A DNA stretch of 41,491 nucleotides from the IMG/VR virus record IMGVR_UViG_3300011114_000931, positions 1-41,491 of that record; one strand, 5' to 3'. The notes beneath the pieces are model-generated. The model made no database searches. It had not been told where the DNA came from and saw nothing but the letters and a program-made list of their open reading frames with translations. Shown piece after piece: positions 2,944 to 31,488 of the stretch; positions within the stretch are counted from its first letter, which is position 1, and each line of letters begins with the position of its first letter. The position numbers and the translations under genes are program-made. Source of the stretch: a virus.

Positions 2944-3530
2944 TGGCCGCCAATTTAATTGATTTAGCTTTAGGTGCGTTGTTGCCAAGTTATGCGACAG
3001 ATACAGTTGCGATCTTTACTCAAGATTATGCGCAAGTATTAAAACACGCAAGACCTTTAAAAGTTGTAGTAAAAGAATCAGCAAAAGTAATGGAGCATCC
3101 AATTGAAACTGGGGCCACCATTGTTGACCATAGAATTATTTTACCGGTAGAAATAGAACTATCTCTAATTATTCCGAGATACTTGTATCATAATGAATAT
3201 GACTTGCTAAAAGGTTATTATTTAAACAGCACGCTATTGACGATACAAACACGCACAGGCATTTATACAAATCAGCTGATTCAGTCAATGCCACACGAAG
3301 AAGACGCGTCCCAATATGATGCAATAGCAATTGCTATGAGCACGAAACAAGTACAGTTTGTGATGGCGCAATTTGTAACAACACCTAAAAACAAATCAAA
3401 TTCAAACACAGTCTCCACAGGTATGCAACAAGGAAAGCCCGCAACGCCTCAGCAATCCACGCTTCTTTTTGACGCTGGTAAATACGCTTCGGGCGGATTA
3501 AAGTCTTTGTTTAGCGGAGTATTCGGATGA
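2943..3530 (+). CDS. Dit-like tail/baseplate protein
   Basis: This 195-residue protein has its ATG overlapping the tape measure stop (TAATGG). The N-terminal half carries VKESAKVMEHPIETGATIVD followed by H, closely matching the Dit-like N-terminal domain of simple myoviruses, where an EHP...G..I.DH motif is characteristic. The C-terminal 50 residues are low-complexity (Ser/Asn/Gln/Gly) and probably flexible. In cyanophage Pam3-type tails the equivalent protein lies between tube and hub. It overlaps the next gene by four bases (ATGA), showing translational coupling. Family assignment is by motif memory. Confidence 0.72.
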   Translation: MAANLIDLALGALLPSYATDTVAIFTQDYAQVLKHARPLKVVVKESAKVMEHPIETGATIVDHRIILPVEIELSLIIPRYLYHNEYDLLKGYYLNSTLLTIQTRTGIYTNQLIQSMPHEEDASQYDAIAIAMSTKQVQFVMAQFVTTPKNKSNSNTVSTGMQQGKPATPQQSTLLFDAGKYASGGLKSLFSGVFG

Positions 3531-3868
3531 TACAGATACCTTTGCAAGCCATTCCTAACCAATCGTTATCCATTGCGTTGAACGGGATTAATTTTGATTT
3601 AAGTATTCATTCATGCAATAACACGCCATTAGTAGCGGGTACGGCATTTATGACGGTTTCAATTGTCGCAAGTGGGGTTTTGATTGTAGATAATGTTAGA
3701 GCAGTTCCTGCGACGGGTTTGATTGGATATCAATACTTAGAGCAGGGCGATTTTTACTTCATAACAGATAATGACGAATATCCAGATTATAATTTGTTTG
3801 ATAATAATCAGGCTTTGATTTATGCGTCACAAGCTGAATTGGAGGCGATTGTTAATGGCAGCTCTTGA
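3527..3868 (+). CDS. Baseplate plug protein (Pam3 gp18-like)
   Basis: This 113-residue protein starts with IPLQAIPNQSLSIALNGINF, the typical opening of the small all-beta plug family first seen in the Pam3 cyanophage baseplate. It ends with a YPDYNLFDNNQALIYAS segment that also fits. The predicted role is to close the tube at the baseplate between hub and Dit-like ring. It overlaps both neighbours, so it is part of one translationally coupled baseplate operon. Confidence is moderate because the assignment rests on pattern recognition without a search. Confidence 0.68.
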   Translation: MIQIPLQAIPNQSLSIALNGINFDLSIHSCNNTPLVAGTAFMTVSIVASGVLIVDNVRAVPATGLIGYQYLEQGDFYFITDNDEYPDYNLFDNNQALIYASQAELEAIVNGSS

Positions 3869-10022: not shown

Positions 10023-13000
10023 TTGACGGCGCTGGTGATTTTATTAAGTGGGCCTCAGCCTTAGGGTACATACCAGGAGGAGGCGGAAGCGGTGGTGTAA
10101 CACCCCTGCAAGTACAGCAAAACGCATTTAACTTTGCTGCCGGACTCGGTGCCGACGATCACTTTGTCGTAAATTTATCACCAGCGGTATTAACACTTAC
10201 AAACGGCCTTCCTATTTACATGGTATCTGGGTTTACTAATTTAACTACTACGCCCACATTAAAAATTAACGCATTGCCTGAAAAATTAATTGTATCAACC
10301 TCGGGAGAAGCCTTAATAGTTGATGACATCCAGGCCGGGGCCGCCTATTTATTTATCTATTCATCAGCTGACGATAATTTTCAATTAATAAACCCATCGA
10401 TTTCCAACGCAAACGCTTATTTAGTACAAAAAAATTATTTCAATTACGCCATAGACTTTGGCGCAGCTGATGCTTACGAAGCAAATTTTCCATTTGCGCC
10501 GCTAGTGACTTTAGCAGGTGGATTAAGCGCTATTGTACAAATTGATAATACCAACACAGGGCCATCAACTTTAACGCTAAACGGCCAAACAGCGCCAATT
10601 GTTGGCATCAGTGGTGGCGCATTAATTGCTGGAGAAATAATCGGTGGTGGTATATCTGAATTTATTTACTCAGATAATTACGCCGCGTTCATATTATTAA
10701 ATTCAGCAATAACACCTGGTGGTGGGACGGTCGGTAATGGGGCCATCAATAACCTCGCTTATTATGCGGCAAGCGGTAACACCATTAGTTCGCTCGCAAC
10801 ATTAAACAATGGCGTTTTAATTACCAGCAATACTGGTGTGCCGTCGCTTTTGGCTAATGGTACGGCTGGATATGTTCTAACTGCAAATAGTGGCGCGTCT
10901 CCTTCATGGCAAGCACAGGGTTATTTGAGTAATGCTGTATTATTAAATCCATCAGCACCGCAGACTATCGGAGGATTTGGGTTAACCATTTCAGCCGGCG
11001 GTATTACAGTTAGAGACTCTATAAGAAGCACCACAAATAGTATTTATGCGGGGTCTTCTGGTTTTTCAGGAGGTTATTATTCGTATCCTTCAACTGCGTC
11101 TAGCGGATATTTGCAATTATCGGCCACAAATAACGCTGGTGATTTCGCGGGCATATTAACGAATGCTTCTCTTTCTGCTGCAAGAGGATGGGAATTGCCC
11201 GACGTATCAGGAACAATTGCTTTAACAACCACTGCCGTATTGTTAAATCCTGCTGCTGACCAAACAATTGTAGCTCACAATCTAACTATCTCTAACGGTG
11301 GGTTGACGACAGCGAGCGATATTTTAGTAAATAGTATAACTGTGGGCGTTGGTGCTTATCGTGATGTTGGTAATACCAATTTAGCTGTAGGAGTCGGTGC
11401 ATTATCAGGAAACGCCACAGGAACATCAAACACCGGAATCGGTTTTGCGGCTTTAATTGGTACAGTAAGCGGAAATGGTAATACTGCGGTAGGAACAGGG
11501 GCAGCTCAAATAAATGACGGCACCGGAAATACGTTTACAGGTTCAAATTCTGCTGCTCTTTTAGGTATTACATCCAATGGAGATTATAATACTTTTTTTG
11601 GTTGCTCAACGGGATTGGCGGGAGCGGGAGTTGGAGCGCAGGATTTTCAAGGTGGAAATAGTAATACTTTTGTAGGGTTTAATGTTACTGGTAATAGTTA
11701 CGACCAAAACGGAACGATAGGAATTGGTGCGTTGGCTGTAGCTGATGCTGCAACGGGCGTCCTATCAACCCAGTTTGGTTCTGGAATATCCATAGGCTCT
11801 TCCTCTTTCCCCGTGGGATTCAGGGGAGACGGTACACCTATACCGGCTGGGGGCGCTCATTATTGGCGAATGAAAATTAATGACGCGTATTACGACATTC
11901 CTATTTTACCAGATGCAACAACAATCTCCTGGCCGTCAACAGGAACACTCGCCACAACTAGCGGAAGCCCATTTGTATTTGTCGTAGGGCCAGACAGCAT
12001 ATACACCACCATTTCTTCAGCAATGACCGCAGCCGCTCTGGTAGGTACTTCTTCACAACAGTGCTTAGTATTGATTCAACCGGGTATTTACGTAGAAAAT
12101 ATAACGCTTGCATCATATGTTAGCGTAGTGGGCGAAAGTGGAAAAGACGAAAGTTCAGTTATTATTCAAGGTAATACTTTATATAATGCATCGGAAGCAG
12201 GAAACATTTCTTTTTCATTAAGTAATTTATCCTTTATTACTCCACTAAGCGGCGGATCAGCTTTAACTATTTCAGGCAGCAGCACATTAAATGTATACAT
12301 CAATAATTGTATAATTAATGGTTTGTATGGGAACGCTTTTGTATTCAACAACCCGAACAACGGTTATTTAACTAACTGCACAGTCACAGCGGGAGGTGGT
12401 TATAGTTGCTTCATAATAAGCGGTGGGATCGTAAAAGTTAATGATTCTAGTATTTCCACATCAAACACAACATCAAAAATATCTGCAAACGCAACATTAG
12501 AATTTAATTACTGTGTTGTTAGTGATTCGTATGATTTAACAGACACATCCGTAATAATGGCTAATTACAGCACATTTACTGGCATAAATCTTACTTATAT
12601 CTTTAATGTAGACGCATCAGCTTCCGCTGAAGTATCTTTTCTTGTTGTAAACAGCAATGACGCCTCAGGAAATTGGGTGGTGGGAACAGGCGCACTGCTT
12701 TATAACGCAATTTATCCGATTGGTGGAAGCTCTGCTCATATTGACCCTGGATTAATAATAATAAGCAGCGACTTTCTTGTTGGCAACCTTGTTCTTGGAG
12801 CAATGTTAAATCCACAATACGGTGGAACCGGAATAAACAATGGTTCAAAAACCATAAATTTAGGCTCACCAACCTCTGGTTATTTGCTTACAAGCGACTC
12901 GTTAGGTAACGCCACTTGGCAAGCCGGGCCTGCTCCCGCAGTTAACCCATGGATATCAATAACCACAAACAGTTATTCCGCGGCAGTTAATACGAATTAT

Positions 13001-18562: not shown

Positions 18563-18803
18563 TGCGATAGTCTTTTTCTTGTTGATAAAATTCCCCAAAC
18601 AGGGCTTTGACCTGTACACGCATTGTATCGACCTCTTCCTGCATTCTTATAAAATTAAGATTAATTTTTAAATTATCAACAGCAGACTTATATTGTCGAT
18701 AAGCGCTCTTCAAATGAAAATAAAATATCCACAAAACAGCTATGGCGCCAACCGTACCGCCCAAAATAGAAAGCAAAAACAAATCAACCATATTAGCAGT
18801 CAT
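18555..18803 (-). CDS. Small membrane protein with coiled coil
   Basis: I place the start of this 82-residue protein at ATG 18803, because GGAGGGGG lies just upstream; the open frame extends further but has no such site. It has an N-terminal membrane span (VDLFLLSILGGTVGAIAVLW then IFYF, residues ~6-30) followed by a helical, probably coiled-coil tail (KSAYRQYKSAVDNLKINLNF, EEVDTMRVQVKALF). The topology resembles an inner-membrane spanin or a membrane anchor, yet it is embedded in the recombination operon. Role unknown. Confidence 0.65.
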   Translation of the reverse strand: MTANMVDLFLLSILGGTVGAIAVLWIFYFHLKSAYRQYKSAVDNLKINLNFIRMQEEVDTMRVQVKALFGEFYQQEKDYRND

Positions 18804-19473
18804 CTTTTCCCCCTCCATGACAAACTTCTTTAAACCGACAGGAAGCACAAACATAATATAAAGGACTTTTGTTAATGCGCTCAGGCGGCTCCGTAGCATC
18901 AGATATATCACAAGCCTTAGCTACAAGTTCATGGTAATAAATATCGTCGTAATCAACCCATTCATGATGATACTCAGACGTATCTTTGTTTAGCGCAAGC
19001 AGGCACGCCGAATGTATCCCTGTCATGCCCATGTAAGATTGCAATTGTGCAAAATAAGTTTGTGACCAAGCGCGCAAACCATCTTTTTTGAATGAATTAA
19101 AACTTGAGTTTTTACATGTTTTAGCCTCAAAAACAACCGGGCAATCACGATTAAGATACAATATAGCATCCATATGACCCTGAAATATTTGTAAATTTTC
19201 CTCACGACAAAACAAATAATTATTTATTTCCTCCGGTCGCTCCAATTCAAAACCAAGTTTACCAACATCGTCTAAAATCATATTCTCAAGAATTTTTCCG
19301 ATTTTAAACGTTGTTCGTAATTGAGGAGAAATAGCATTCCCTTGAATATTATGCAAACCATACCATATGGCCCTGCTACATTCTTTACCAATACTACTTG
19401 CCCCGATATAACGTCGGGGATCTTCATGTTCTTGCTTCGAAATGGATTCCGATATAAGCTTGGTAATGTCCAT
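18793..19473 (-). CDS. Cas4-like iron-sulphur exonuclease (PD-(D/E)XK)
   Basis: This 226-residue protein has the RecB/Cas4 nuclease pattern: GASSIGKEC with Cys32, Glu63 in a G-x3-E motif, GHMDAIL with Asp102, VVFEAKTCK with Glu116 and Lys118, and a Q..Y motif (QLQSYMGM). Near the C-terminus it has YVCASCRFKEVC, giving Cys209, Cys212 and Cys218. One N-terminal plus three C-terminal cysteines is the Cas4/AddB-type 4Fe-4S arrangement. Start with AAGGAAG upstream. Together with the Sak4-like ATPase and SSB it forms a phage recombination system that resects DNA ends. No CRISPR genes are nearby, so a Cas4 role in adaptation is not implied. Confidence 0.88.
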   Translation of the reverse strand: MDITKLISESISKQEHEDPRRYIGASSIGKECSRAIWYGLHNIQGNAISPQLRTTFKIGKILENMILDDVGKLGFELERPEEINNYLFCREENLQIFQGHMDAILYLNRDCPVVFEAKTCKNSSFNSFKKDGLRAWSQTYFAQLQSYMGMTGIHSACLLALNKDTSEYHHEWVDYDDIYYHELVAKACDISDATEPPERINKSPLYYVCASCRFKEVCHGGGKDDC

Positions 19474-19495
19474 TTTATATCTTCCTTGTATAAAA

Positions 19496-20092
19496 TTAAA
19501 ACGGGATGTCGTCGTTCAGCTCTGCTTCATTAACGCGTTGATTTCTCGATAACGCGCTATCTTTTTTCTCTACTGCAGCGCGTGGTTGTGGTGGTAATAG
19601 CGTGCCTGTTTCTGTTGGTACATCACCGCAAGCGTGCACTTCTGTCACGTGATTTCCGTCAATCATAGAACCATCAGATTTTGCCATGTGCCATTCGCGA
19701 ATTTTAATCGTTAATGTTTTTCCGTTCATTTCCGCTAGCTCTGCATCTACTGGCGCGTTGTTATGTGACGGCTTGTAGTCGCATAACTTCATAACAAGCA
19801 TTAACATGTTAAGCGCTCTGTCAATAGCTTCTGGTTTTCCTGCAAAAGCTTTTATTTTTTGCAATACTTCACGGTTTCTAAAATCACCGGAAACAAGTTT
19901 CCAGGTAATTTCGAAATATTTGTTTGTTGTTTGCGTGTAGTCGTTATTTTTTTCTACGATAACAAACTTTTTAATCATGGCGTCTGCGACCGTGCCGTCG
20001 GGTATTAAAGTAAAATCACCTAAAAAAGCCTCTTCAGCTGCTCCGGTTATTTTGCGACCACTTCCACTAACCCAGAAAGATGTTTGTGTCAT
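19496..20092 (-). CDS. DUF669-type single-strand DNA-binding protein
   Basis: This is 198 residues. The N-terminal part carries GDFTLIPDGTVADAMIKKFV and NKYFEITWKLVSGDFRNREV, with AFAGKPEAIDRALNMLM, the typical DUF669 layout of an OB-like domain followed by a helical Cys/Ala region. The C-terminus is acidic and ends NDDIPF, the classic SSB protein-docking tip. It starts as TAATG with the upstream Sak4-like gene. This gene is nearly always next to Sak4-like ATPases in phages and is thought to protect and present ssDNA for annealing. Confidence 0.83.
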   Translation of the reverse strand: MTQTSFWVSGSGRKITGAAEEAFLGDFTLIPDGTVADAMIKKFVIVEKNNDYTQTTNKYFEITWKLVSGDFRNREVLQKIKAFAGKPEAIDRALNMLMLVMKLCDYKPSHNNAPVDAELAEMNGKTLTIKIREWHMAKSDGSMIDGNHVTEVHACGDVPTETGTLLPPQPRAAVEKKDSALSRNQRVNEAELNDDIPF

Positions 20093-20859
20093 TATTTTTT
20101 ATCCTTGTTATAGAATGGGATGTGTTTTGCGATTGCAGCATAAGACATTTCGATCTCATCTGGAATGGCAAATCTATTCTTAGATACATGTAGATCACTA
20201 ACGCCCGAATAAATGACGCGTTTATTTGTGCTTTTAACTATCGTTCTACCTGATTCAGTCGACACATGATTCGATTTTAGTTTGCAAAACGCAACCATAT
20301 CAACGTTGTTAATGTACACGCTGCGCGATAAGTCCGAATTCATTGCGATAGAAAACGTATCAAAATCTTCAGCCTCTGGTGATTTAAACTTTTTAATTTC
20401 AACGTGCGCTATGTATACAACTGTGATCCCACGCTCTTTGAACAAATCAAATTTTGCTTTTAATGCGCGATGCAGCGAGGCAGCTTTCAAAAATCCAGCG
20501 CCATAACCACCAAAAGCCTGGGCTATTGTGCTCACTTCCTCGCCACGTTTACCTGGTGGGCTTTCGCTAATAGTTCGCGCGACAACCAAAGCATCTAGCG
20601 CGGTAATGCTGTCGACAACAATTGTTTTAAATGGCAAATCTTTGATTTCAAGAAGTGCTTTAACATTATTCCACACATCAACATAACTGTGCGCAATGGG
20701 TAGCGCCTTAATATTTGTTAATGCATTGTCTTCAGTCAAAACAAATAACGCATCAGGAAATTGCGCGGCTAATGTTGATTTTCCTATCCCTGGAGCTCCG
20801 TACAAGATAATTGACGGAGCTTCGGGTTGCGTCGTAATGATGCTATCTAAAATGCTCAT
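20092..20859 (-). CDS. Sak4-like RecA-fold recombination ATPase
   Basis: This 255-residue protein has Walker A GAPGIGKST at residues 21-29, Walker B FKTIVVDSI with Asp83, a VVYIAHVEIKKF strand and a Gly-rich loop (AFGGYGAGFL). Length and motifs fit the Sak4 group of phage RecA-like single-strand annealing ATPases. GGAGAG lies before the ATG. It is the centre of the leftward recombination operon, with SSB, exonuclease and a DUF7173-like protein. It catalyses strand annealing in phage recombination-dependent repair or replication. Confidence 0.88.
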   Translation of the reverse strand: MSILDSIITTQPEAPSIILYGAPGIGKSTLAAQFPDALFVLTEDNALTNIKALPIAHSYVDVWNNVKALLEIKDLPFKTIVVDSITALDALVVARTISESPPGKRGEEVSTIAQAFGGYGAGFLKAASLHRALKAKFDLFKERGITVVYIAHVEIKKFKSPEAEDFDTFSIAMNSDLSRSVYINNVDMVAFCKLKSNHVSTESGRTIVKSTNKRVIYSGVSDLHVSKNRFAIPDEIEMSYAAIAKHIPFYNKDKK

Positions 20860-23090: not shown

Positions 23091-23329
23091 TGGAAGACGC
23101 AAAAACTATTTTGATTGAGCAATCAATGGAAAACATTAAGAAACTTGAATCGATTTTATGCAAATTTAAAACCGATTTAAGTTCGGACGATTTTGATTTG
23201 TTATCTCACGTCTGCATGTCTAGCGAGGTTCTGTGCGCTTATATTTCTACGAGTTTATATGCTGATGTGATAATGATGTATAAACATTATGAAAGACAGT
23301 TTAATGTTGATAATTCTGTTGCTCATTGA
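23090..23329 (+). CDS. Small helical hypothetical protein
   Basis: This 79-residue protein starts in a TAATG overlap, with AGGAGCGG upstream. It is all-helical (AKTILIEQSMENIKKLESIL, DDFDLLSHVCMSSEVLCAYI). Not recognised. Confidence 0.6.
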   Translation: MEDAKTILIEQSMENIKKLESILCKFKTDLSSDDFDLLSHVCMSSEVLCAYISTSLYADVIMMYKHYERQFNVDNSVAH

Positions 23330-23355
23330 TTAACACAAAAAAAAAGGAAAATATT

Positions 23356-23655
23356 TTGTACAAAAAAAACACCTATTGGTTTGTTATAAAAAACAAATCA
23401 AAAAAAGAAGAATTATTTAAATTTGACGCAGGAACGGAAGTAAGAAAAAAAATAATGGAGTTTATGTATGAATCGCAAGATCAAAACAATGAACTCCGTA
23501 TGTCATATGTAGATATAGCAAAAGAAATAGGATGCCATAGAGAAAGCGTCATGAAAGCCGTTAAATGGGCTCAAATAAAAAATATTTTAATAAAAACAAT
23601 GGCAAAACAAAACAAAGTAGAGGAAAGAATAAACAAATATACTTTTATTTTGTAG
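23356..23655 (+). CDS. Winged-helix-like small DNA-binding protein
   Basis: I choose the TTG at 23356 (99 residues) because AAGGAAA precedes it at a good distance; another TTG at 23326 overlaps the previous stop but has no ribosome site. The core, RMSYVDIAKEIGCHRESVMK followed by AVKWAQIKNILI, is a clear helix-turn-helix with wing, and the rest is Lys-rich. It may regulate early genes or help replication initiation, as the O-like gene follows. Confidence 0.65.
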   Translation: MYKKNTYWFVIKNKSKKEELFKFDAGTEVRKKIMEFMYESQDQNNELRMSYVDIAKEIGCHRESVMKAVKWAQIKNILIKTMAKQNKVEERINKYTFIL

Positions 23656-23974
23656 ACAAGTCATTGAAAACAAAGTAAGTTGAACGACTTAAGCTAGAGC
23701 AGTAACTCCAGCTCAGGTCGTGAGCGAAGCTCATTGACATAACCGCGATTAATAAGGAATCGGATTATGGGCTATTATTATATTATATTATTACGGAATG
23801 ACAATAGTTTTGATGAAATATTTTATGCTGATTAGATTGGTAGATTTTTTGTTAAGTAAAAAAAGGATATTAGAAGCGAGAAGTAAATAGGGCATCCCGC
23901 CCCGACACGTATGTTGACGCATACGGTGTACAACCTGTAATGCTGAAGGAACAACAGCGAAGGAATGTTATCAC
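23656..23974. other. 319-base region without a confident gene
   Basis: This stretch separates the small early genes from the O-like replication gene. It contains a GAGC/GCTC-rich segment near 23695-23735, a 22-codon open frame at 23767-23835 with AAGGA upstream (MGYYYIILLRNDNSFDEIFY then AD), a leftward promoter-like sequence related to promoters A-D at 23782-23810, and a hairpin at 23908-23925. It may hold a leader peptide, a small RNA or part of an origin; none is proved. Confidence 0.5.
23908..23925. other. Hairpin CGTATG-loop-CATACG before the O-like gene
   Basis: CGTATG (23908-23913) and CATACG (23920-23925) form a 6-bp stem with loop TTGACG; ACA and TGT outside can pair if one base bulges. 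It is 50 bases upstream of the replication gene. It could be an operator or an RNA element in the leader. Confidence 0.4.
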
Positions 23975-24916
23975 ATGAGCAATAAAAATACAACACCCGC
24001 ATCAATAGAAATTACGCCTGCGTATGATAATTACATATCAATCGATTTATCCTCCAAACGCAATATGTCGCTTTATGAAATGGCTGTTTATCAAACACTG
24101 CGTTTTGAGTGTCAATTTAGTCAAAAGGTCAGCAAAATCGAACGAACAATCGCATGGATTGCCAAGGAATCCAAATGCAGTGAGAGAAAAGTTTACGATG
24201 CATTAAACGCTTTGGAATTTAAGCATTTTGTATTGCAACGTCAAAACGTAAAGAATTTTAAATACGGGAAAGTTAATTCATATCTTATAGCTAAAGATTA
24301 TGAATATTTTAAACAAAAAGACCAATCATTTTACACCCCTGCATCAAACGACATAGGTGTAAAACAAGAGAACAAGTTACCTGAGCAAATTTCTTACACC
24401 CCTGCACCATATGCAGGAACCCCTGCACGAAACGACATACTAAGATCTACATTAGATATACATAAGAAAAACAAAACAATAAACAACACACTTTCACCGC
24501 CTGACGGCGATGTATTGCCTGTAAAAGCGGTTGATACTGATTATTCTTACCCAGATACCTTGTATCAAGAGTCCATGCCAGCAACTGAGATTAAAAACAA
24601 AGAGTTAAATGCAATTGTTAGTACTAATCCTCACAATATCCCATGCGACATGATTGAAGATTGGGCCCAAGTCAGAAAAGTGGCTCGTAAAAAAATAACA
24701 AGAACAGCATGGAACACGATTAATAAGCAATTAGAACTATGCAAACAAAAAGGGATTAGCCCTTTAACTGCTTTTGAGACAATGGTAACCAGGGGATGGG
24801 CCAGTATAGAAGTTGACTGGTTAACAAAAGGAAGTAAAACGCATTTAGCACCTGATGTTACTTATTTTAATCATGATCCATTAAAGCCTCTTAATATTGC
24901 AGAGGATTTATTTTGA
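23975..24916 (+). CDS. Lambda O-like replication initiator
   Basis: This is 313 residues. A winged helix-turn-helix fills about residues 30-115 (MSLYEMAVYQTLRFECQFSQ, RTIAWIAKESKCSERKVYDA then LNALEFKHFV), the pattern of phage O-like initiators. The central linker (~120-165) is encoded by DNA with iteron-like repeats (24332-24439). The C-terminal domain (~225-300: MIEDWAQVRKVARKKITRTA, WNTINKQLELCKQKGISPLT) is the usual helical part that contacts the helicase loader. The P-like gene overlaps its end by four bases. AAGGAATG precedes the start. Confidence 0.82.
   Translation: MSNKNTTPASIEITPAYDNYISIDLSSKRNMSLYEMAVYQTLRFECQFSQKVSKIERTIAWIAKESKCSERKVYDALNALEFKHFVLQRQNVKNFKYGKVNSYLIAKDYEYFKQKDQSFYTPASNDIGVKQENKLPEQISYTPAPYAGTPARNDILRSTLDIHKKNKTINNTLSPPDGDVLPVKAVDTDYSYPDTLYQESMPATEIKNKELNAIVSTNPHNIPCDMIEDWAQVRKVARKKITRTAWNTINKQLELCKQKGISPLTAFETMVTRGWASIEVDWLTKGSKTHLAPDVTYFNHDPLKPLNIAEDLF
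24329..24439. repeat. Intragenic iterons: putative replication origin
   Basis: ACCCCTGCA occurs at 24335, 24398 and 24419. The first and third copies extend to 21 bases with 19 identities (ACCCCTGCATCAAACGACATA at 24335-24355; ACCCCTGCACGAAACGACATA at 24419-24439). TTTTACACC (24329) and GGTGTAAAA (24356) are inverted around copy one, and CCTGCA/TGCAGG are inverted at copy two. AT-rich DNA follows (24440-24490). This is the lambda ori layout: iterons in the O gene followed by an easily melted region. Confidence 0.68.
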
Positions 24917-25536
24917 TGAACAACGACATAAAAACATCAATCATCATAAATATGTTATTTAGAACATTAACTTCAATTTTCCCGGCGTTTAAACAAGCAT
25001 GGCCCTCTGAGCCTGATTTTGAAGACGCCAAAAAAGAATGGTTAAAAGCTTTTATTCAGGCCGGAATAACAGATATTAATCAAATTAAAAATGGAGTAAA
25101 CGCTTTCAGATTAATGGCGAATCCTTTTGTTCCGTCACCTGGTCAATTTATAGCGTTATGCAAACCATCGCGCGAATCATTAGGGATTCCTTCGAACGAT
25201 CAAGCCTATCGTATCGCTTGCATAGCTAGCGGTAAATTTTCAGATAAAAACTGGGTGCATGTTACAATTGAACATGCGGCAACAAAAATCGGGAAGCTTG
25301 ATTTGAACTCCAAACCTGAAGCCTATACGTATAAAATATTTGAACGTCATTTCGAAAACAGCATACAAGATTTTATTAACGGCAAATTACAAGATACATC
25401 CACAGCTATAATTGATGACTCAAAAGAAACAGTTGAACTATCCAAACAACATGAAATTGCGAATCGGTTTAAACATATTAACAATCATTCAAAATGGAGA
25501 GACGATATGATCAAAGTAGGATTCTTAAAACCATGA
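24913..25536 (+). CDS. Lambda P-like replication protein (helicase loader)
   Basis: This 207-residue protein starts in an ATGA overlap with the O-like gene. The N-terminal part (INMLFRTLTSIFPAFKQAWP, EDAKKEWLKAFIQAGITDIN) and LMANPFVPSPGQFIALCKPS fit the lambda P family, where W...L..... and PSP..F..LC motifs are common. The role is to bring the host DnaB helicase to the origin bound by the O-like protein. No AAA motifs are present, so it is a P-type rather than DnaC-type loader. The next small gene overlaps its stop. Confidence 0.8.
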   Translation: MMNNDIKTSIIINMLFRTLTSIFPAFKQAWPSEPDFEDAKKEWLKAFIQAGITDINQIKNGVNAFRLMANPFVPSPGQFIALCKPSRESLGIPSNDQAYRIACIASGKFSDKNWVHVTIEHAATKIGKLDLNSKPEAYTYKIFERHFENSIQDFINGKLQDTSTAIIDDSKETVELSKQHEIANRFKHINNHSKWRDDMIKVGFLKP

Positions 25537-27340: not shown

Positions 27341-27455
27341 GCTATAAATGCATACAAAATGGAAGGATTTAGACCGCGGCTTGAAAGTCATATAGAATAA
27401 GGGTTTTGTTGTGTTTACTCACAGACTTTTCAACAGATATTGGGGGTTAAATTAC

Positions 27456-29078
27456 ATGCCGTTACCATTTGATTTTGATTATAAAAAACCGGATTATAAC
27501 GAAGTATGGGATTGGCGTATGGAGCGTTATCTACGTTTGAAACAAACCCCTGAGATGTGGGATACATTGCGATTGTTTTATCGCAGCAACCCTGCGCAGT
27601 TTATTATTGATTGGGGTGTTACAAGTGATCCTCGAAATGTCGAGCGTGGACTGCCGGTGCTTATGCCTTTTTTGTTGTTACCTAAGCAGGAAGAGTGGGT
27701 GCATTGGTTATTAGACCGTTGGAAAAACAGGGAGCCCGGCTTGGTTGAAAAATCACGCGAGTGCGGTCTGTCTTGGCTTACTGTTAGCGTTGCATCAACT
27801 CTTTGTTTGTTTTATGAGGGAATGAATATCGGCTTCGGTTCCCGCAAAGAAGAGTACGTTGATAAAAAAGGTGATCCAAAATCGCTCCTGTGGAAAGCCA
27901 GACAATTTATTTCACGACTCCCGAGGGAATTTCGAGGAGATTGGGAAGAAAAAAAACATAGTCCGTACATGCGTATTGAATTTCCTAACAGTGGCTCTGT
28001 TATCACTGGCGAGTCTGGGGACGGTATAGGACGAGGGGCAAGAACCTCAATAACATTCATTGATGAAAGCGCCTTTATTCCACGCGCCGAGCTTTTGGAT
28101 GCTTCGTTATCACAAACAACTAACTGCAGAATTGATGTATCAACACCAAGAGGAATGAATAATAGTTTTGCAAGAAAACGATTCGGTGGAAAAATAAACG
28201 TATTTACGTTCCATTGGACAGATGATTTAAGAAAAGACCAGGCGTGGTATGAAAAAATGTGTCATGACATTGACGATCCCGTCGTCATAGCTCAAGAGAT
28301 TGATTTAGATTACTCAGCATCTGTCGAAGGCATTTTAATTCCTTCAGTATGGGTGCAATCAGCTGTAGATGCCCATTTAAAACTTAATATAAAACCCACA
28401 GGCACACGCAAAGCAGGAATAGACATTGCAGACGAGGGGATAGATAAAAACTCGCTATGCGCGCGCCATGGTATACTCGTGGAGCATCTTGAATCATGGA
28501 GCGGAAAAGGGAGTGATATATACGATACGGTTGAAAGGGCCTTTAGGCTTTGTGATGAGTTGCATTTACCTAGCGCTGATTATGACGCTGATGGTCTTGG
28601 GGCTGGCGTTCGGGGTGATGCTCGTGTCATTAATCGCGATCGTGTGGCTGCTGGGTTATCTAAAATCAATTTTAATCCTTTTAGAGGCTCAGGTGCGGTT
28701 GTCGATCCCGAAGGTAACCCATTTCAGTCGTCGTCAGAGATTAAAGATCGCGAACCAGGCAGAACAAACGAAGACTTTTTTGCTAACGCTAAAGCGCAAG
28801 CTTGGTGGTCGCTAAGACGCAGGTTTCAATTAACATACCGAGCAATAGTAGAAAAACTACCCGTAGACCACGGCGACATTATTTCAATATCAAGCGCAAT
28901 TCCAGACTACAAAAAACTGTTAGTTGAATTATCACAACCAACATACTCACAAAATAACAACGGTAAAATTTTGATAGACAAACAACCACCTGGTTGCAAA
29001 TCCCCGAATTTGGCCGACTGCGTTATGATTGCATTTGCTCCTGTACCTGGCGCACGACGAAGCATATTTAATCTTTAG
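27456..29078 (+). CDS. terL: Large terminase subunit
   Basis: This is 540 residues from ATG 27456, chosen because [20 protein letters not shown] is the usual family start; a GTG at 27411 with AAGGG upstream is possible. ATPase: a Walker A-like [10 protein letters not shown] (~97-107) and Walker [11 protein letters not shown] with the catalytic Asp-Glu (~199-206). RNase H-like nuclease: [14 protein letters not shown] (~322), [11 protein letters not shown] (~375) and [12 protein letters not shown] (~518), holding the acidic residues. It packages DNA into proheads using the portal. Terminases of this kind go with DUF1073 portals; the small subunit is not next door but near 9.4 kb. Confidence 0.93.
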
Positions 29079-29183: not shown

Positions 29184-29714
29184 TTATCCATAACCATTTT
29201 CTTTTCTCCATTCACCCACCCATTCATACCCTTTCACTCCGTGAGCAAACTCTTGTAATTCGGTGATTGTGGGTTTTTTTGTTTTTGAAGTTGAAGTTGC
29301 GTAAGCATCGCTATTGTCTTTCTTATTGCTTTTAAGATCTGAATTTTCCATATACCGTTTTTGGGTAAGCTTAGGTGACCCATTTTTGGGTAAGCTTCCG
29401 GAAATAACGGGTACGCTTGGTTTTTGAGCATACCCAATAACGGGTACGCTTAATGTAACTCTGTACACAGGCGTGCTTTTGGTTTTCCCTTTCATTTCAC
29501 CCGTTTTCACTATTAATTTTTTTTCAGATAATGAAACAAGAGCTTTATAAACGGTTTTTTTATCCAATGAAGTACTTTCACAAAGTGATTTAGCTGAAGG
29601 CCAGCACTCATATGTTTTTTCATCGGCACGAAAGGCAAGCACATTTAAAGTAGAATGTTCAGATGATAATAAATATTTAATTTTATAAGAAAGATTTACT
29701 AGTTCTATGCTCAT
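29184..29714 (-). CDS. Second winged-helix initiator-like protein
   Basis: This is 176 residues. The N-terminal winged HTH (residues ~10-90: YLLSSEHSTLNVLAFRADEK, WPSAKSLCESTSLDKKTVYK, LVSLSEKKLIVKTGEMKGK) is of the same type as the O-like protein. The linker (~90-125) has repeated peptides (SVPVIGYAQKP, SVPVISGSLPK, SPKLTQK) encoded by DNA iterons. The C-terminal TITELQEFAHGVKGYEWVGE is short. It lies alone on the minus strand between large terminase and portal. It could be a second replication initiator or a regulator that binds its own gene. There is a weak ribosome site. Confidence 0.72.
   Translation of the reverse strand: MSIELVNLSYKIKYLLSSEHSTLNVLAFRADEKTYECWPSAKSLCESTSLDKKTVYKALVSLSEKKLIVKTGEMKGKTKSTPVYRVTLSVPVIGYAQKPSVPVISGSLPKNGSPKLTQKRYMENSDLKSNKKDNSDAYATSTSKTKKPTITELQEFAHGVKGYEWVGEWRKENGYG
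29363..29451. repeat. Intragenic repeats GGGTAMGCTT (x4)
   Basis: GGGTAAGCTT occurs at 29363 and 29388, each after a T-run (TTTTTGGGTAAGCTT), and GGGTACGCTT at 29409 and 29442, each after ATAAC (ATAACGGGTACGCTT). Spacings are 25, 21 and 33 bases. The array lies inside the second initiator-like gene, as the iterons at 24.3 kb lie inside the O-like gene. It may be a second origin or a self-binding site. Confidence 0.72.
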
Positions 29715-29813: not shown

Positions 29814-29949
29814 CAATCCCTTGTCTAGCCTGCATTATACACAAGTCATTGATTAAATTATATAAATCAAAAACTCTCGATATGGCATATAATCTAACTT
29901 TGTAGCATCATAACGTTTACTATCGTCCGCTAGCTTGCAGGAGTTTTTA

Positions 29950-31488
29950 ATGTTGTCGAAATGGATTAACAAATTAATAAACAAAAAAACAGAAACACCC
30001 GCTCTTGTCGCGCCTAAACCGGAACGACCAAGACAAATTTATTACGACAACACACAAAACAGTCTTCAGTCACAAATTGAAGAAAAAATGGAAGATTTGT
30101 TCAAAAACGCAATCAATCCAGCCGTAGCGATGGATACCGCAAAAAACAAAGGCGCTTCTACGTTTGCGATGGACAATCAGCTGTCTCCTAAACAAGCATT
30201 TAACACGCAAAACCTGCCAGAAGCGCAAGTTATGTGGTATCTGAATCAGTCGTTTATTGGCTACCAGCTTTGTAGTTTGCTCGACCAACAATGGTTAATC
30301 TCTAAGTGCTGTCTGATGCCCGCCAAAGACGCGACAAGAAACGGCTACGAAATTACAGTTAATACAGGGGGGGATGATGGCGTTAACCCTGAAGTTTTGG
30401 ATTACATACGTGAAGCAGATGTACGGTATCAACTCAACCGAAACCTCATTCAATTCGTCCAAATGGGGCGGGTTTTTGGTATACGTCATGCTATGTTTAT
30501 CGTGGAATCTGACGATCCTGATTATTACCTTAAGCCATTTAATCCAGATGGGGTAATGCCCGGAAGTTACAAAGGCATATCACAAGTAGATCCGTATTGG
30601 ATGGCCCCACAATTAGATGCCGAAGCCGCAGGCAACCCCGCAAACATTTACTTCTACGAACCCACATGGTGGATAATCAACGGCAAGCCGATACACCGCA
30701 CACATTTAGTTATTTTCAGAACCGAAGAAGTAGCCGACATTCTAAAACCCGCTTACATTTACGGGGGTGTACCGATACCCCAGAAGATAGCGCAACGAGT
30801 CTTTGCGGCAGAAACAACAGCTAATGAGGCTCCAATGCTTGCAGCCACCAAGCGTACAGACGTAATGAAACTAGACTTGGCTCAAGCCGCAGCAAATCCT
30901 ATTAATGTAGCTAACACACTTAATCAATACGTCACTAATCGTAATAATTTTGGCGTTAAACTCATTGGCTTGGATGATGAATATCAACAGCATGATATTT
31001 CACTTGCTGATTTAGATTCTGTGATTATGACGCAGTTTCAACTTGTGGCAGCAGCAGCAAACGTACCGGTTACAAAGCTTCTGGGAACCACTCCAAAAGG
31101 TTTTAACGCAACCGGCGAGTATGATGAATCATCATATCACGAAGAACTTGAGAGCATCCAGAAACACGATTTAACACCAATGATTGAACGCCATCATCTG
31201 TTATTGATACGTTCTGAAATAGCACCTAATTTTGGCATTGAACCATTTCACACGACTATCGCATGGAATCCTCTTGATGCAATGACTGCCGAGGAGCTAG
31301 CTGTATACAACAAAACGAAAGCGGAGACGGGTAGCATCTTGATGCAATCAGGGGCTATTGATGGATACGATGAACGTGAACGCATTGCCAGCGACCCGGA
31401 TAGCGGTTATAACGGACTCGATACAAATATGACACCAGATGAACATCATGGTGAAATGATTGAGAGCGATCCAAACGAGGGTAGTTAA
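29950..31488 (+). CDS. Portal protein (DUF1073 family)
   Basis: This is 512 residues from ATG 29950, with AGGAG upstream. Typical DUF1073 patterns are seen: [20 protein letters not shown] then [80 protein letters not shown] and [13 protein letters not shown]. These phages use it as the dodecameric portal at the capsid vertex. It precedes the gp7/F-like gene (TAATG overlap). Databases may name this family after the anti-CBASS protein Acb1; here all features are those of the portal. Confidence 0.9.

Follow-up and report, generated by a model that had tools for sequence, protein, structure and literature searches.

In phage lambda, PMC7466680 places the iterons and an AT-rich region in the middle of the initiator gene O, and work quoted there states that three iterons suffice. 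For the same origin, PMC3349717 gives four iterons of 18 bp each and an AT-rich sequence of 38 bp. Origins of the lambda style that differ in their iterons are already in print, and the origin layout described here is textbook.

The DNA analyzed here, referred to as the window, is the whole of a 41,491-base IMG/VR virus record with genes for head, tape-measure, and tail-sheath proteins. An earlier note had proposed a lambda-like layout inside its O-like gene. This proposal was supported. An O-like gene with in-gene repeats and an A-rich tract is followed by a P-like loader gene, which is the order found in lambda. We put the probability that positions 24335–24439 hold the iterons of a replication origin of the lambda type at about 0.88.

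Positions of the O-like gene, its repeats and flanks, and the neighbouring and orphan genes in the window
Feature	Position	Strand	Basis or remark
O-like replication initiator gene, 313 aa	23975–24916	+	phrog_678 'replication initiation O-like', E = 9.9e-18
Predicted winged-helix DNA-binding domain, about residues 20–118	24032–24328	+	AlphaFold model and Foldseek
AT-rich flank upstream of the iterons	24254–24328	.	AT 0.82; 24254 is the start of the gene's least stable 60-mer
Iteron 1, ACCCCTGCATCAAACGACATA	24335–24355	+	Inside the dyad 24329–24364; conserved in L183 and L247
Possible decayed iteron, TTACCTGAGCAAATTTCTTAC	24377–24397	+	Suggested by alignment: L183 and L247 have an intact site here; precedes iteron 2 by 21 bp
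Iteron 2, palindromic core CCTGCA-CCATA-TGCAGG (24401–24417)	24398–24418	+	
Iteron 3, ACCCCTGCACGAAACGACATA	24419–24439	+	Follows iteron 2 by 21 bp; L183 and L247 keep AAACGACATA unchanged
A-rich tract, candidate unwinding region on the P side	24440–24499	+	A 0.52; A+T 72%
C-terminal helical domain, residues 203–284	24581–24826	+	pLDDT 91–96 over residues 211–280
Lambda P-like helicase loader gene	24913–25536	+	Pfam Phage_lambda_P, E = 1.8e-28; overlaps the end of O
Orphan initiator-like gene, 176 aa	29184–29714	-	phrog_1032, E = 2.6e-17; Pfam HTH_36, 1.7e-8
Four AAGC[GT]TACCC iterons of the orphan gene, then an A-rich tract (A 0.43)	29348–29451	-	

The O-like protein and its genomic setting

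The gene adjoining the O-like gene encodes a P-type helicase loader, whose product matched PDB chains 8v9t_V ('Helicase loader') and 6bbm_V ('Replication protein P'). The O-like protein itself gave no gathering-level Pfam match to a phage O model, only a sub-threshold TrmB helix-turn-helix, and a sequence search against solved structures returned no meaningful match. Close relatives of the whole protein were found in neither IMG/VR nor GTDB contigs; relatives were obtained only via the P protein, via the iteron patterns or, in the case of L247, by luck via the orphan protein. There was no nucleotide match of positions 20000–41491 to phage records, and a plasmid search gave a single match, to the C-terminal part, in a gonococcal record.

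The window had no Rfam matches or tRNAs. Sigma-70 scans returned promoter-like sites no more frequently than in shuffles, and no promoter is claimed. The GC skew of the window is confounded by gene strand and has no bearing on the position of the origin. Just upstream of O, a 109-aa ORF (23326–23655, +) showed weak initiator/regulator helix-turn-helix matches (best E about 0.003), and a recombination cluster at 18793–20859 (-) encodes a Cas4-domain exonuclease, a single-strand binding protein, and a Sak4-like annealing ATPase.

Much of the full-length AlphaFold model of the O-like protein was of low confidence, and Foldseek with this model found nothing at E ≤ 0.001; a model of the N-terminus was used for the fold search in its place. 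This model has helices at residues 33–49, 59–66, and 70–82 and strands at residues 54–57, 86–89, and 101–105, with a pLDDT of 81–96 over residues 31–90 and lower values in the wing, the winged helix spanning residues 31–105. Residues 70–82 (SERKVYDALN...) form the putative recognition helix. The best PDB fold matches were TrmBL2 and the initiator domains 4pql, 5kbj, and 4pt7. The Pfam scan gave no RepA_N plasmid initiator family, the similarity found with Foldseek being one of fold only. A winged helix in the N-terminus was indicated by the structure model, by the profile match described below, and by Foldseek. The linker is predicted to be disordered (pLDDT 33–48 over residues 111–180), and the C-terminal helical domain, which is common to the P-found loci L002, L003, L005, and L006, is presumed to contact the loader or helicase.

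The repeat array and its A/T-rich flanks

Three copies of ACCCCTGCA had been claimed in the linker of the O-like protein, at 24335, 24398, and 24419, with two of them extending to 21 bases with 19 identities. The results confirmed all three, and the extended pair was identified as copies 1 and 3, identical at 19 of 21 positions (90%). The spacings are 63 and 21 bp, which sets all three copies on a 21-bp phase. A single further copy exists in the window, at 10102; dinucleotide shuffles gave an expectation of 0.21. The inverted pair CCTGCA (24401–24406)/TGCAGG (24412–24417) was present as described, and the peptides YTPASNDI and TPARNDI were found in the translated linker. The other inverted pair of the earlier note, TTTTACACC (24329–24337)/GGTGTAAAA (24356–24364), was also present, but the outer part of this dyad is unconserved in relatives.

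The repeats lie in the coding sequence of the initiator, between its two protein domains, and a 27-nt pair at 24320/24383 is the longest direct repeat within 150 bp found in the whole window. Counting against the lambda-type reading, no more than three repeats are intact, and of these the middle one alone is a palindrome.

The A-rich stretch said to follow the repeats was found, its best 60-mer ranking within the highest 0.2% of the window in A content; it is not, however, the least stable DNA in the gene, as 24254–24313 upstream is less stable. By nearest-neighbour stability the downstream tract falls in the least stable 6.5% of 60-mers and the flank upstream extends into the bottom 1%, so both flanks of the array are low in stability and the upstream one is lower. 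The downstream tract is strand-biased in A, as elsewhere in the iteron class described in the next section.

Iterons and DNA-binding domains in related initiators

A pattern scan found both extended repeat patterns of the window in a single other IMG/VR contig, L183. Its gene matches the O-like protein over residues 20–178 only (52% identity), and its C-terminus belongs to another initiator family (PHROG 270/9474). L247, which came from the search with the orphan protein, shares residues 20–164 at 37% and has a different C-terminus. Both relatives keep ACCCCTGCA..AAACGACAT[AG]GGTGT at one end of the array and CTGCA..AAACGACATA at the other. As read from the alignment, the arrays of the window, L183, and L247 all start with CCCCTGCANNAAACGACATRGGTGT and finish with CTGCANNAAACGACATA, with palindromic TGCANNNNNTGCAG sites between them; L183 and L247 have two such inner sites, and the window has an intact one plus what appears to be a decayed one aligned at 24377–24397.

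At identical degenerate residues the window and L183 use the same codon in 19 of 22 cases in the linker; in the DNA-binding domain they do so in 20 of 55 (Fisher p = 9.6e-5). Linker residues 132–148 are poorly registered in the alignment, which works against the codon-identity result. The frozen codons of the linker show a constraint on the DNA itself. The earlier note had named homologues that keep the linker peptides while losing the DNA repeats as a finding that would speak against an origin; the opposite was found, as L183 and L247 keep the repeats with frozen synonymous sites.

Seven loci (L002–L008) were obtained through the P protein. They carry DNA-binding domains other than that of the window, and the window's array was found in none of the seven. 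Three direct linker copies of repeats of about 21–39 bp occur in five of them (L002, L003, L005, L007, and L008), and only palindromes in the other two (L004 and L006).

The loose pattern ACCCCTGCA-N8-38-ACCCCTGCA occurs in at least 119 IMG/VR stretches. Among the matches listed, an initiator winged helix was encoded over the match in 54 of 119, compared with 0 of 61 for a composition-matched scrambled pattern; the 54 loci are redundant, many being close copies of L010, and the winged-helix profile was built from 13 genes, 10 of which (L171–L180) were retrieved by homology to the scan locus L014. A survey of the collected loci for ACCCCYGCA gave 175 clusters, 118 of which were inside a forward ORF and had sufficient sequence before them; 87 of these matched the winged-helix profile, leaving 42 arrays in 41 genes (L042 counted twice) after removal of redundancy. 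Most of the remaining clusters belonged to TPA or similar repeats of low complexity in genes of other kinds. Frequent spacings in the class are 17, 18, 22, and 23 bp, in a tally that includes low-complexity arrays. In each of the 40 genes measured, the 60 bp after the array exceeded the gene in A content (mean 0.375 vs 0.257), with T unchanged; a duplicate and a truncated array were left out of the 42. The copies are read in frames 0, 1, and 2 at 78, 18, and 61 places, respectively, and a DNA word read in all three frames shows that selection is not on the peptide. In L089 and L075, nearly all copies are in one frame as near-perfect repeats, and expansion at the peptide level is possible there.

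The window, like the class, has a winged helix and, in the linker that follows it, two or more copies of ACCCC[CT]GCA. Its DNA-binding domain alone matched the class profile weakly (17 bits, over the stretch of the recognition helix only) and missed the cut of E ≤ 1e-3. Five proteins with other iterons or another orientation (L180, L179, L008, L182, and L002) scored higher than the window against this profile, so overall domain similarity alone does not predict the iteron. When the domains of the window and L183 were combined in one profile, it matched the domain of the ACCCCYGCA-array initiators (hhalign 93.7%, E = 2e-7; class profile of 12 class genes chosen from the survey). The domain of L003 and L005, which have other iterons, matched neither this class (2.7%) nor the window type (0.3%) in hhalign.

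Taken together, these comparisons clearly show that the iteron sequence travels with the DNA-binding domain, irrespective of the C-terminal domain and the loader, as one swappable unit. The double dissociation of the repeats from the C-terminus and from P supports the lambda-type reading and is the decisive evidence for it. It gives a practical rule for finding origins in uncultured phages, which is to search the linker that follows the winged helix, and the domains with their iterons are natural pairs from which the recognition code of such winged helices could be learned. Within the open-licence literature, no description of an ACCCCYGCA iteron class was found, either among papers that print the word (such as CCCCTGCA) or by topic, which is weak evidence of absence.

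The orphan initiator-like gene, rival explanations, and known systems

The window has a second, orphan initiator-like gene between the terminase (27411–29078) and portal (29935–31488) genes, without the O C-terminal domain and with no P gene beside it. Its four AAGC[GT]TACCC sites are the only ones in the window, and none of 20,000 synonymous permutations gave four. The orphan domain resembles that of L002 (38% over 132 residues), which has similar iterons (AAGCAGTCCCAAAAACGGTACTGCT). Orphan-like winged helices in the initiators of PPompW (L248 1201–2241), AB1 (L249 1201–1932), phiV10 (L250 1126–1953), and GF-2 (L251 1129–1971) have CCCAAA-type, CCCAAAAACGGG-like repeats in the linker. Judged by these similarities, the orphan-type domain with its repeats is a second class in which iteron and domain go together. 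The orphan protein ends in a GYEWVGEW tail common to L246 and L247. The tailed initiators of L246 (2473–3370) and L247 (2212–3091) are followed by a conserved gene of approximately 98 aa (3350–3647 and 3104–3398, respectively). The possibility that the orphan keeps this partner gene was rejected, as the window had no significant match to it.

The orphan cassette is a competing candidate origin site in the same genome, and it may be a second origin, a device for interference, or only a remnant. If it interferes, the orphan, having no loader-recruiting domain, would occupy or titrate the origins of competitors, as a natural version of the laboratory-built exclusion by lambda origin decoys described in PMC3349717 and PMC4488673. 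We consider unlikely the reading in which the phage carries two initiator/iteron modules of different specificity, a complete O-ori-P with ACCCCTGCA and, on the opposite strand, the orphan with AAGCKTACCC, and in which the orphan serves as a natural replication-interference cassette that titrates or occupies the CCCAAAAACGG-type origins of competing phages, with the ACCCCYGCA domain-plus-iteron unit portable under unrelated C-termini in many phages.

The words are short and the copies few, as chance repeats in a low-complexity region would be, but when the gene was shuffled by dinucleotides, just 1 of 2000 shuffles had a 9-mer three times within 110 bp. Synonymous codon permutations, which leave the protein unchanged, gave ACCCCTGCA at least three times in 37 of 20,000 trials and some 9-mer three times in 94 of 20,000. 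This fixed-protein excess is real but moderate, and the comparative evidence weighs more; since L183 and L247 show the same layout, chance was rejected and we give it next to no credence. The repeats could also have arisen as a side effect of selection on the protein, for a flexible Pro/Ala linker peptide that is itself repeated, and all three window copies do read TPA in the same frame. Against this stand the frozen linker codons, the reading of the word in all three frames in the class, the predicted disorder of the linker, and the TPA peptides at residues 7 and 14, which lie outside the linker and are written with other codons; this explanation, too, was rejected as very improbable.

Another explanation accepts that the O-like protein binds the sites, mainly for autoregulation or an incompatibility-like control of replication, and puts the working origin elsewhere, such as at 29184–29714 or upstream of O. 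The orphan gene, a second winged-helix gene with four distinct and cleaner iterons and an A-rich tract, is in favour of this, as is the stretch at 23773–23872 upstream of O, which is among the least stable of the window. However, the orphan has neither the O C-terminal domain nor a P neighbour, whereas 23975–25536 has the full O/P set, and according to PMC7466680 and PMC8022706 the origin of lambda and of P22/L is, or is taken to be, at the in-gene iterons. We regard an origin elsewhere as distinctly improbable.

In lambda, O binds the iterons, the resulting nucleoprotein destabilises the A/T-rich DNA beside them, and P delivers DnaB. Under the preferred lambda-type reading, the O-like protein would bind the 21-bp-phased ACCCCTGCA sites through its winged-helix N-terminus, probably in dimeric form, and the helical phase would keep the bound protomers on one face. 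This nucleoprotein assembly would strain and melt flanking A/T-rich DNA, either the downstream tract or the less stable upstream flank. The C-terminal domain of O would then recruit the P-like loader encoded next door, and the loader would deliver the host DnaB helicase. Binding, melting, and origin firing are what we infer by analogy with lambda.

Ten named phages were chosen from the 242 records similar to L014; seven had ACCCCCGCA repeats, one (a Microcystis phage) the variant ACCCCCGAA, and two other repeats. The seven (Pseudomonas MD8, Itty13, PotUPM1, Stenotrophomonas CUB19, Vibrio pA2SJ1, Aeromonas 56, and Sphingopyxis VSN-002) are like the window in having a winged helix and then linker repeats, spaced mostly by 17, 21, 22, or 23 bp. 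They differ from it in having C rather than T at position 6 and mostly more copies; their C-termini vary, and their domains, of the HTH_36 type, are closer to one another than to that of the window. PAJU2 and U7, chosen for C-terminal similarity to the window, have linker repeats as well, those of PAJU2 being of different sequence. In Pseudomonas phage U7 (L182 1329–1419), reverse-oriented TGCAGGG-type repeats lie in the O-like linker.

The structures 4pql, 4pt7, and 5kbj, which we take to be staphylococcal plasmid RepA-type initiators, share a winged-helix initiator domain with the O-like N-terminus at a Foldseek probability of 1.00, but with E-values of just 2e-3 to 3e-3 and a TM of about 0.5, and the window protein has no RepA match in Pfam. 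Staphylococcal RepA-type plasmids have iterons inside the rep gene.

In P22 and phage L, as in the window, each initiator gene (gene 18) holds its own distinct repeats, which PMC8022706 argues to be the origin. Their operons have a DnaB-type helicase gene (gene 12) where the window has a P-type loader, and the repeats differ (PMC8022706). The four iterons of lambda are palindromic, whereas the window has three clear 21-bp-phased sites of different sequence and perhaps a decayed one; its DNA is of low stability on both flanks, and its DNA-binding domain lacks a direct match to the lambda O family in Pfam. As far as the lambda origin is described in PMC7466680 and PMC3349717, the window resembles it in the in-gene iterons of the initiator, the adjacent A/T-rich tract, and the overlapping P-type loader gene downstream.
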